Assembly (NCBI RefSeq): GCF_037975245.1
Contig: NC_092575.1
Location: forward strand, 11,116,501 to 11,180,500
Origin: Apostichopus japonicus
Lineage: Eukaryota; Echinodermata; Holothuroidea; Aspidochirotida; Stichopodidae
Reading direction: 5' to 3'
Length of the DNA stretch: 64,000 nucleotides
A model generated the notes under the pieces. That model was not told the DNA's origin. It ran no database searches and was given only the letters and a program-made list of their open reading frames with translations. Positions 27,001 to 30,281 of the stretch are shown here, piece by piece (the stretch's first letter is position 1; every line of letters begins with the position of its first letter). The translations under genes and the position numbers were made by a program.

Positions 27001-30000
27001 CGGTCGCATTCGTTGTAAGCGGTACTAGGTTTGTCTACAACGAAAAGAGTTATCGATACAGCGAAAAGAACAATCGACGCCATAAACAACATGAAAAAAC
27101 AGGTTTGTAGTACATATATACATAAACACATTTTGAGAGTCAGTACTTTATCAAATGAAGAATTTATCCGGAGATTAAAAAGTTATCCTCGAGACAATCC
27201 AAAGATTACGAAACAGGATTCGTGGTTTAGGTTAATTCAGAACATTTAAATAAAGTAGTGAATTATAGAAATTGGAGCTGGCAGCAATGTAGTTCAAATC
27301 GTCACGCCACAACATCATACAATTTGTTTTGTTTTCTTGTGTGTGCGAGGGGGGGGGGGGGGCGGTAGTCTTTCTAGATTGATCAAGTGCCCAAAAGCTA
27401 TTGACAAATTTGCACTCTGAAATTGAAAGAAATATCTATCAATATGTCCAAATATTGCACGGAATTATATTTGGCTTTAAAAGAGGTCGCAAAAGCTATA
27501 GGTGTTGACTCCAACTCAATTGATGCCTGATATCTGGGCTAGAGCTGCTAATATATACCGGCAGTAAGGACTACGACAAATGGGTACAGGTAGAAGAAAC
27601 GTCACACCTCACATTGCAGCAGTTATGGCTACTAACGAAACCCCGCGCAAAAATAAGATTCAGACATGTCAGAAACCATCAAAATAAGTAGACTTGACTT
27701 AAAGGGTGTGAAGACTCGGGCAAAAAGAAAGTCTAATGCCGGTAATCTGACCTAGTTTCGAATGAGGTGTAACAAAAGTGTTAGACACCACCATCGATCC
27801 GAGAAATACACACACAGCTTGCAACCGTTTGTAATTAGACACTAGTGTACAGTCAATACATACAGCTGCGGTCAATACCCACAGCACAGTGTATAAACGA
27901 TACAGCAATGGAAATCTCAGGTCCAGCTAAAGATAACAAGGTATCACGTTTCATTACTGTCTGCATTTTGTAGCAACACGAACAAAACGTCACTTGCAAA
28001 ATGGAGGTAAAACAGATGTTTTACCTCCATACTTGCAAGCAACAGAAAGTTAACTGTTTCTGATGGCCGCACGCGGTATGGGGCGAGTCTTCAATGCCTT
28101 TAAGATTGTTATATTTTAACATCTCGATATTTCATAAAGTATAGGATGATTTTAGGACTCAGAACTAAGCTACTGCTCTCTGTCCAGGTTGACTTTCCGT
28201 AACACTTTCAATTTTGGAGAAATTAAACAGCTTAAATTAATCACATAAAGTGACTGGACTATAACGTCTAATAAACATGGCCATTATAGGTCAGTGTTTT
28301 AGATGTAAACATGAAACTCACTAAGAAACACATAGGATTGGTAAAGCCACAAAGGCATGTTAACAATGTTTTCAAATTATTCGAAAAATTGGGTTTTATA
28401 AAACAATAAATTAACATAAATATGAATGCCTTCATAAAAGAGCGGAAATCATCATCAACTTAGCTTAAAAGAAGCATCCCAGAGATTTTGCATATTTGAA
28501 AGATGAATATATTGAAACCTGGAATAGCTAAAGAAACATTGCTAGCACTGAAATGTTGTTCGTTTTCTTTTTATCAATACTAAACTACCAGATAGAAATA
28601 TAGATAGAAATTTCGTACTTTCAGATGTGGCGGGAATATCTGGAGTAGGTCCAATTTCCGGTTGAATGTCAACATTTTCTCTAGATAGATAGATAGATAG
28701 ATAGATAGATAGATAGATAGATAGATAGATAGATAGATAGATAGATAGATAGATAGATAGATAGATAGATAGATAGATAGATAGATAGATAGATAGATAG
28801 ATAGATAGATATATAGATAGATAGATAGATAGATAGATAGATAGATAGATAGATAGATAGATAGATAGATAGATAGATAGATAGATAGATAGATAGATAG
28901 ATAGATAGATAGATAGATAGATAGATAGATAGATAGATAGATAGATAGATAGATAGATAGATAGATAGATAGATAGATAGATAGATAGATAGATAGATAG
29001 ATAGATAGATAGATAGATAGATAGATAGATAGATAGATAGATAGATAGATAGATAGATAGATAGATAGATAGATAGATAGATAGATAGATAGATAGATAG
29101 ATAGATAGATAGATAGATAGATAGATAGATAGATAGATAGATAGATAGATAGATAGATAGATAGATAGATAGATAGATAGATAGATAGATAGATAGATAG
29201 ATAGATAGATAGATAGATAGATAGATAGATAGATAGATAGATAGATAGATAGATAGATAGATAGATAGATAGATAGATAGATAGATAGATAGATAGATAG
29301 ATAGATAGATAGATAGATAGATAGATAGATAGATAGATAGATAGATAGATAGATAGATAGATAGATAGATAGATAGATAGATAGATAGATAGATAGATAG
29401 ATAGATAGATAGATAGATAGATAGATAGATAGATAGATAGATAGATAGATAGATAGATAGATAGATAGATAGATAGATAGATAGATAGATAGATAGATAG
29501 ATAGATAGATAGATAGATAGATAGATAGATAGATAGATAGATAGAAAGAAAGATAGATAGATAGATAGATAGATAGATAGATAGATAGATAGATAGATAG
29601 ATAGATAGATAGATAGATAGATAGATAGATAGATAGATAGATAGATAGATAGATAGATAGATAGATAGATAGATAGATAGATAGATAGATAGATAGATAG
29701 ATAGATAGATAGATAGATAGATAGATAGATAGATAGATAGATAGATAGATAGATAGATAGATAGATAGATAGATAGATAGATAGATAGATAGATAGATAG
29801 ATAGATAGATAGATAGATAGATAGATAGATAGATAGATAGATAGATAGATAGATAGATAGATAGATAGATAGATAGATAGATAGATAGATAGATAGATAG
29901 ATAGATAGATAGATAGATAGATAGATAGATAGATAGATAGATAGATAGATAGATAGATAGATAGATAGATAGATAGATAGATAGATAGATAGATAGATAG

Positions 30001-30281
30001 ATAGATAGATAGATAGATAGATAGATAGATAGATAGATAGATAGATAGATAGATAGATAGATAGATAGATAGATAGATAGATAGATAGATAGATGTAATA
30101 CTTACTGTTTACTTGATGGTGAGATAACAAGCACAATCAGCAATCCAGTCATGAAGACCAGAATCAAGTATACGATAAAGACTATTCTAATCTTCACTTT
30201 CGCTCCCGAAGAACTACCATTTTCATTTGTCGGTGCAATGGATAGCGGCTGCATCCCACTTATAACTGCTGGATCAGACAT
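21054..30281 (-). CDS. Membrane-anchored laccase-like multicopper oxidase (MCO-A), 9 exons
   Basis: Minus-strand exons 30281-30106, 28680-28619, 27034-26799, 26272-26009, 25305-24875, 24443-24262, 23732-23464, 22412-22125 and 21158-21054 join in phase to give 670 aa. Residues 1-30 are a hydrophilic tail, about 31-53 a single membrane segment preceded by KVKIR (type II anchor), and about 59-79 a short stalk. A Cys-rich module (CDRTC, CGNC) and VNQQVPGPKII follow, as in animal laccase-like oxidases. Copper ligands are all present: HWHG (182/184), HSH (226/228), HPMHLHG (556/559/561), and HCH (628-630) with His634 and axial Met639. The predicted job is one-electron oxidation of phenols or metal ions coupled to reduction of oxygen to water, outside the cell or in the lumen; the substrate is unknown. 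The start is ATG 30281; an in-frame TTG at 30299 is not used. Exon 2 is the least certain exon: 62 nt, found by phase and by its position in MCO-B. Confidence 0.92.
21285..21835. repeat. Complex direct/inverted repeat in the last MCO-A intron
   Basis: A left block (about 21285-21415) and a right block (about 21690-21835) share direct copies of AACTACTGTTCATG, CACAACCGTGCATCAGTAAT and TTCGTAACACGGTAACA. In addition, the left segment ACTCATAACTGGTACAGTAA is repeated in inverted orientation near 21790-21815. This resembles a MITE or two nested copies of one. I found no clean target duplication. Confidence 0.6.
27993..28039. other. Perfect 14-bp hairpin in MCO-A intron 2
   Basis: ATGGAGGTAAAACA (28001-28014) pairs with its exact complement (28017-28030) over a 2-nt loop. 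CTTGCAA/TTGCAAG extends the stem beyond a small bulge. It could extrude as a cruciform or be a fold-back remnant. There is no evidence of an RNA product. Confidence 0.55.
28681..30105 (-). repeat. (GATA)n array forming the whole of MCO-A intron 1
   Basis: Between the anchor exon (ends 30106) and exon 2 (starts 28680), the minus strand reads GTAAGTATTAC, then about 1.4 kb of ATCT repeats (roughly 353 units), then AG. There are only two interruptions, near 28811-28814 (TATA) and 29544-29551 (GAAAGAAA). The array has no AG dinucleotide on the sense strand until the acceptor. The long open frame of alternating Leu-Ser-Ile-Tyr across it is an artefact of a four-base repeat without stops. If the intron is retained, the gene frame stops at once (CAG TAA). 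Confidence 0.85.

Follow-up and report, generated by a model that had tools for sequence, protein, structure and literature searches.

Introns dominated by a simple short repeat are known from Drosophila Y genes, where they have been connected with Heph, a PTB-family protein. In kl-3 and kl-5, such introns are transcribed and must be removed and, according to the available parts of the report, removal of these satellite introns needs Heph (Fingerhut 2019, PMC6508621). Here, we analysed a window of 64,000 nucleotides from Apostichopus japonicus (contig NC_092575.1, positions 11,116,501 to 11,180,500; coordinates below are those of the window), in which intron 1 of a laccase-type multicopper oxidase gene, MCO-A, is almost entirely a tetranucleotide microsatellite. 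As in kl-3 and kl-5, a simple short repeat dominates the intron, is transcribed with it and has to be taken out again. Unlike them, it measures 1.4 kb rather than megabases, so that intron gigantism is absent, and its repeat reaches both splice sites, a feature that the available text of PMC6508621 does not report for kl-3 or kl-5.

Human introns with distant branch points (Gooding 2006, PMC1431707; OGDH, PMC7969005) resemble the MCO-A intron in having a long stretch without AG upstream of the 3' splice site. In the accessible sections of the former study, AG-free tracts of at least 100 nt were counted in 838 of 67,334 introns and tracts of at least 150 nt in 165, and mapped branch points lay up to 400 nt away (PMC1431707). 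With an AG-free tract of 1418 nt, MCO-A intron 1 exceeds the 100-nt threshold for introns with a long AG exclusion zone (AGEZ), a class further marked by branch points mapped more than about 100 nt from the AG. It differs from the human cases, as they appear in these sections, in the length of the tract, its derivation from a repeat, the lack of a distant YTNAY motif, and branching that is probably local.

In dog merle PMEL and in the HSP110, ATM and MRE11 genes of tumours with microsatellite instability (MSI), a poly(T) microsatellite is the polypyrimidine tract, as in MCO-A; in the excerpts available, however, this is a short mononucleotide run inside an otherwise ordinary intron (PMC7349775, PMC9957390). 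Long intronic arrays of 4-6-nt units are also described for the human disease expansions of CNBP (CCTG), ATXN10 (ATTCT) and C9orf72. The arrays of these three genes are not known to supply splice sites. The expansions reported to inhibit splicing are, in the available excerpt, the GC-rich ones (PMC8363653), whereas the MCO-A array is AU-rich and predicted to be unstructured. Our searches of an open-access library, in which most subscription journals are missing, brought up no intron with both splice sites reached by a single microsatellite.

Results

Anatomy of the repeat intron

The analysis is based on one genome assembly and the gene annotation of A. japonicus. We found that intron 1 of MCO-A, read on the minus strand, has the composition GTAAGTATTAC + 353 x ATCT + AG. 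Its parts and the two exons that it separates are as follows.

30106..30281, minus strand: the 176 coding nt of MCO-A exon 1, for the N-terminal tail and the transmembrane anchor; identical to P0001
30095..30105, minus strand: 5' splice site GTAAGTATTAC, the sole non-repeat part apart from the last G
28681..30105, minus strand: MCO-A intron 1, 1425 nt, GTAAGT...CTAG, splitting exon 1 from exon 2
28682..30094, minus strand: (ATCT)353 array (TAGA on the plus strand), with three substitutions
28681..28682, minus strand: 3' splice site AG, whose A is the final repeat base
28619..28680, minus strand: MCO-A exon 2, 62 nt, stalk, entered in phase 2 and left in phase 1

Tandem Repeats Finder delimits the array at 28682-30094 with 353.2 copies and 99% matches, in agreement with the roughly 353 ATCT units followed by AG of the original prediction. 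By this measure the repeat occupies 1413 of the 1425 nt, of which 1407 nt are strictly 4-periodic (about 99%); the substitutions lie at intron positions 556, 560 and 1294. Exon 1 terminates in TAAACA directly before the GTAAGT, and this junction, with its coordinates and phases, reads in the sequence as had been claimed. The intron has ordinary GT...AG ends with a U1-compatible 5' splice site (GTAAGT...TAG), and the proposal that the repeat itself forms the 3' splice site holds, because the A of the AG is the last base of the array. The motif is present on both flanks of exon 2: the intron on its 3' side starts with ATCT-like remnants at 28590-28618 (TTTCTATCTATATTTCTATCT).

AG dinucleotides occur at intron positions 4 and 1424 only, leaving 1418 nt free of AG where a zone of about 1.4 kb had been announced; the second-longest AG-free run on the minus strand of the window measures 237 nt. 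Pyrimidines make up 75% of the last 20 nt, as expected of the pyrimidine-rich tract that the repeat was said to supply. The human-type branch-point motif YTNAY, located 10-60 nt before the AG in the part of the source available (PMC10638238), is absent from all 1425 nt. The final adenine before the array lies at intron position 10. This is below the spacing of about 50 nt between 5' splice site and branch point quoted in an accessible passage, which favours a branch point within the repeat, although the limit is not absolute, as the OGDH branch points of the same source lie 25-41 nt from the 5' splice site (PMC7969005). The earlier choice between the repeat and the first dozen bases is thereby sharpened.

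The sense strand of the array is predicted to be unfolded, with a minimum free energy (MFE) of 0 over 301 nt against -33 kcal/mol for the opposite strand. For the intron's first 500 nt, the predicted fold is about 5 standard deviations less stable than that of 100 shuffles. As far as the excerpts go, AU-rich repeats are called mostly single-stranded (PMC6651174), and a contrary source credits AT-rich repeat RNAs with the ability to form hairpins (PMC8773600).

Host gene and consequences of missplicing

The host gene lies on the minus strand and encodes a membrane-anchored enzyme with all three Cu-oxidase domains (PF07732, PF00394, PF07731). Exon models, nine each for MCO-A and its paralogue MCO-B, were derived from splice sites and mutual alignment. 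The nine-exon join of MCO-A translates to 670 aa; its best protein match is the A. japonicus NCBI protein P0001 (100% identity over the full query), with which it agrees letter for letter in an exact sequence comparison. The exon 1-2 join, with the predicted 62-nt exon 2 in its right phases, thus reproduces P0001 exactly. P0001 and its MCO-B counterpart P0003 are annotated proteins, not RNA reads; RNA reads are among the inputs to such NCBI gene models. An error of the gene model is rejected for the annotated isoform by the exact matches to P0001 and P0003. The remaining exons of MCO-A are the following.

26799..27034, minus strand: exon 3, opening the mature domain
26009..26272, minus strand: exon 4
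24875..25305, minus strand: exon 5
24262..24443, minus strand: exon 6
23464..23732, minus strand: exon 7
22125..22412, minus strand: exon 8
21054..21158, minus strand: exon 9, including the stop codon

The anchor reaches a hydropathy of 3.10 in a 19-residue window starting at residue 35. Retention of intron 1 would stop the protein after 59 aa at CAG TAA, just past this anchor, as had been foreseen, and retention, skipping of exon 2 or use of an AG two bases later would each end it at 59-61 aa. Separately, no stop interrupts the array in any of the three minus-strand frames (28542-30136), which hold open reading frames (ORFs) of 475-519 codons that encode mainly (IYLS)n; in principle, this would allow out-of-frame translation of a retained intron.

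A tandem 427-bp duplication covers the upstream region and exon 1 (30115-30541 and 30542-30968). The copies differ at 1 of 260 positions before the ATG and at 12 of 167 coding positions (Fisher p 8.5e-5), and all nine changed codons (9/9) are nonsynonymous. The upstream copy is without the exon 1 5' splice site, and read-through would give a 63-aa membrane peptide.

Comparison with MCO-B and homologues

MCO-B, on the plus strand, served as control; its nine-exon join equals P0003 exactly (676 aa). Its stalk exon was located by a scan of phases and splice sites and then by P0003, not by homology to exon 2.

33973..34133, plus strand: MCO-B exon 1, coding part (anchor); identical to P0003
45489..45586, plus strand: MCO-B stalk exon, 98 nt, entered in phase 2 and left in phase 1, as MCO-A exon 2

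The stalk exon thus sits at the same place as MCO-A exon 2, as predicted, here after an ordinary intron of 11,355 nt. The shared intron position suggests that the position is older than the array. Across the other 15 introns of the pair, AG-free zones span 14-109 nt, compared with 1418 nt in intron 1, and all 15 carry a YTNAY in their last 200 nt, compared with none in intron 1. The best U2 pairing of adenines located 15-60 nt from the 3' end scores 6 in intron 1, the lowest of the 16 (others 7-10). At 75%, the share of pyrimidines in the final 20 nt falls inside the range of the controls (65-85%).

The homologue search gave 365 proteins above threshold, of which 120 were listed, partial proteins included. 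Among the matches listed, a strong N-terminal anchor (19-residue hydropathy above 2.7, start residues 31-35) is present in 4 of 120: P0001, P0002, P0003 and P0005, two from Apostichopus and two from Holothuria leucospilota. A search with P0001 residues 1-95 returned no other protein with such an N-terminus (1 of 20 candidates, P0001 itself), and exon 2 is therefore without confirmation from a second species.

(ATCT)n arrays elsewhere in the genome

Our survey of the genome (671.6 Mb in 35 contigs) covered ATCT as the motif and GTAAGT as the form of the 5' splice site; all genome counts are lower bounds. Exact (ATCT)49 windows match at least 54,418 overlapping positions, about 245 times the yield of the MCO-A array. 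Confinement of the array to the MCO-A locus is thereby rejected, and (ATCT)n arrays are ordinary in this genome. In a 220-kb sample made up of 22 loci, each 10 kb long (20 hand-chosen and 2 next to the window), short-unit arrays above 500 bp numbered two, with units of 4 and 5 bases, none of the TAGA type.

GTAAGT at most 12 nt upstream of (ATCT)4 gave at least 9 matches in five places, with long arrays at four of the five.

Place 1: MCO-A intron 1; 99% repeat, array reaching both splice sites
Place 2: tetraspanin gene (L024, L028, L030, L031); intron of 1997 nt = GTAAGT + 1445 nt array + 545 nt ordinary tail; 72% repeat
Place 3: probable leucine-rich repeat (LRR) protein gene (L027, L029, L032); intron would be 1313 nt; 87% strictly 4-periodic, 94% with the degenerate array end
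Place 4: L026; open frame of about 57 codons with a weak PF08755 match (0.042, below cut-off); array runs into an N stretch
Place 5: L025; 16-bp run without open frame

In the tetraspanin and probable LRR introns, GTAAGT is followed almost at once by 1.07-1.45 kb of (ATCT)n. The tetraspanin exon ...VDTIQID joins the exon FECCGANDYKDY..., and the joined exons match PF00335 (1.4e-26) over a stretch spanning the join. Placing the end of this intron at position 1495, where the first AG follows the array, proved wrong, as the protein-continuing exon begins at 1998. In the probable LRR intron, the array extends to position 1238, and the remaining 75-nt tail contains TTAAT and a run of T. A signal-peptide-like exon is joined in frame to one resembling LRRNT (PF01462, 6.9e-4), and an exon that resembles LRR_8 (0.0047) lies downstream.

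The equivalent donor search in the AGAT orientation gave at least one place, a run of only 16 bp. At this place (L034), a frame is followed by GTAAGTTAGATAGATAGATAGAT; by eye, we take the frame to resemble an SLC26-type transporter exon. Hence, long arrays against a 5' splice site number four in the ATCT orientation versus none in the AGAT orientation, and such arrays recur, so far in one orientation.

At the other end, (ATCT)24 followed by AG occurs at no fewer than 12 places, one of them MCO-A intron 1. Of the other 11, five continue into more tetranucleotide repeat and two represent a single sequence in two copies. Within the 200 nt read at each place, no exon followed by a 5' splice site was seen, and at L040 one frame is open throughout the 200 nt. 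The idea that the both-ends arrangement is common was dropped, as it was not seen beyond MCO-A among these at least 12 places. Among the three arrays readable to both ends, MCO-A alone also reaches the 3' splice site.

Other repeats of the window

Further tandem arrays of the window lie at 9775-10326 (21 bp x 26), 12048-12396 (42 bp x 8), 14737-15275 (54 bp x 10), 31513-31696 (TA x 92) and 63082-63819 (145 bp x 5). Broken reverse-transcriptase-like frames at 59903-61086 look, by eye, like a LINE of CR1/L2 type.

Discussion

In this study, we confirmed the observation behind the original prediction, an MCO-A intron made almost wholly of repeat, and found its interpretation partly supported. We consider it fairly probable that intron 1 is an ordinary GT-AG intron that has been filled end to end by sense-strand (ATCT)n and that the major spliceosome still removes. 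This estimate covers the explanation as a whole, in which the anatomy is observed, and the origin, the tolerance of the array and the branching are inferred. The array would have begun beside the 5' splice site and grown toward the 3' end, and the tetraspanin, LRR and MCO-A introns would represent three degrees of takeover, with 72, 87-94 and 99% of the intron. The final step would delete the ordinary branch point and polypyrimidine tract. It may be viable because the repeat supplies substitutes, namely a tract with 75% pyrimidines, freedom from early AG and from structure, and one adenine in each four-base unit.

The array itself would be tolerated because its sense strand lacks AG, is rich in pyrimidines and is predicted to be unstructured; given a computed fold near zero, efficient splicing would be expected by default. 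U2AF may bind the last repeat units, and branching may take place about 20-60 nt upstream of the AG, at one or several of the equivalent adenines that the repeat offers (UCUAU). Because the first AG after any branch point would be the correct one, a delocalised branch point would cost no accuracy, and variation in array length would be mostly neutral. The price of the takeover may be weak U2 pairing beside a short exon 2. Combined with the weak 5' splice site of that exon, this pairing would make exon 2 a good candidate for regulation.

Several findings weigh against this explanation. The repeat adenine is without the U two bases upstream that YTNAY requires, and 13 of the 15 control introns carry a YTNAY 15-60 nt from the 3' end. 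Control introns A7 and B3 have none there, however, so such an absence is neither fatal nor unique, and a nearby YTNAY is no strict mark of introns of the major (U2-type) spliceosome. Exon 2 is short and its downstream 5' splice site, GTACGA, is weak (score 0.9, on a matrix entered by hand). P0001 is an annotation and the sole database protein found with this N-terminus, and the intron was compared only within the MCO-A/MCO-B pair. The LRR case is weak, as its PF01462 and LRR_8 matches are both below the family cut-offs and its 3' splice site was picked by frame and scores poorly (-1.6). In addition, reversed-pattern controls gave 5 matches versus 9 in the donor search, 13 versus 1 in the AGAT search and 26 versus 12 in the array-plus-AG search; the raw counts therefore show no enrichment, and the content of the places is what counts.

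The same features can be read as a regulatory device. Tuning of splicing by repeat length, raised in the original prediction, is possible. Its strongest form is unlikely: an intron without a defined branch point, offering hundreds of identical, usable but non-consensus UCUAU units and hypervariable in length, would make the amount of membrane-anchored laccase differ among individuals or cells and so act as an animal contingency switch that works by length at a splice site. We also regard as unlikely a length-dependent rheostat in which allele length would alter recognition of exon 2, the enzyme being shut off by intron retention, exon skipping or splicing to the next AG. That all three errors truncate the protein just past the anchor fits such a rheostat, as do the weak 5' splice site of exon 2 and the lowest U2 pairing of the 16 introns, and length-dependent splicing by a repeat at the 3' splice site is known, from the available excerpts, in dog merle PMEL and human MSI tumours (PMC7349775, PMC9957390). 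On the other hand, the array is predicted to be unstructured, and the inhibition of splicing described in the accessible text concerns GC-rich expansions (PMC8363653). A further possibility, which we rate as rather unlikely, is that the main transcript bypasses exons 1 and 2 and the protein starts just upstream of exon 3, in which case splicing of the repeat intron would be rare or absent. In both paralogues, an in-frame Met and a hydrophobic stretch resembling a signal peptide immediately precede the acceptor of exon 3 (27035-27131, minus strand; 47187-47256, plus strand; 12-residue hydropathy 2.9 and 2.7), several hemichordate and mollusc relatives open with a signal-peptide-like stretch as judged by eye and hydropathy, and the name 'isoform X1' implies more isoforms. 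However, T-rich 3' splice sites by themselves read as hydrophobic codons, the anchor and stalk exons are in both P0001 and P0003, and two Holothuria leucospilota proteins likewise carry a strong N-terminal anchor.

With regard to branching, it is improbable that the branch point is something other than a repeat adenine near the 3' end. The repeat uridine in CUA[U]C would form four Watson-Crick pairs with U2 versus two in the adenine register, but uridine is a rare branch nucleotide. Distant branch points are known with long AG-free zones and, in the passage available, lie only 25-41 nt from the 5' splice site in OGDH (PMC7969005); a distant adenine near the 5' end of intron 1 would nevertheless be about 1.4 kb from the AG, compared with up to 400 nt in the cases given in the accessible part of PMC1431707. 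An artefact of assembly, in the array as such or in its length, is hardly credible: nothing was found in its favour, and the published A. japonicus assembly of 671.6 Mb, presumably the genome analysed here, was built, according to the available text, from HiFi reads with a mean of 14.7 kb at 64x (PMC10344927). Arrays of similar size at other loci also speak against an artefact. Finally, the array might act on DNA, as a boundary or enhancer blocker of GATA type between the two divergent MCO genes; we take TAGA to be a GATA/Bkm-type repeat, and the literature, in the portions available, mentions 'GATA repeats' together with 'enhancer blocker'. As such arrays are abundant in the genome and nothing was found that links the MCO-A array to a boundary, this role is very improbable.

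What is new here is that several long (ATCT)n arrays start beside GTAAGT, while the both-ends case was seen only in MCO-A. If MCO-A intron 1 is an ordinary intron taken over by its repeat, it represents a natural minimal intron, in which the minimum of sequence required for splicing is put to the test by nature. Since its non-repeat sequence comprises the 5' splice site and the AG only, it allows the choice of branch point to be examined with a single candidate that recurs throughout. With the tetraspanin and probable LRR introns, it forms a graded series that illustrates how an intron may be overrun by a microsatellite and yet survive. Our results suggest a simple rule for arrays that lie against splice sites, namely that the transcribed strand of the repeat must be free of AG.

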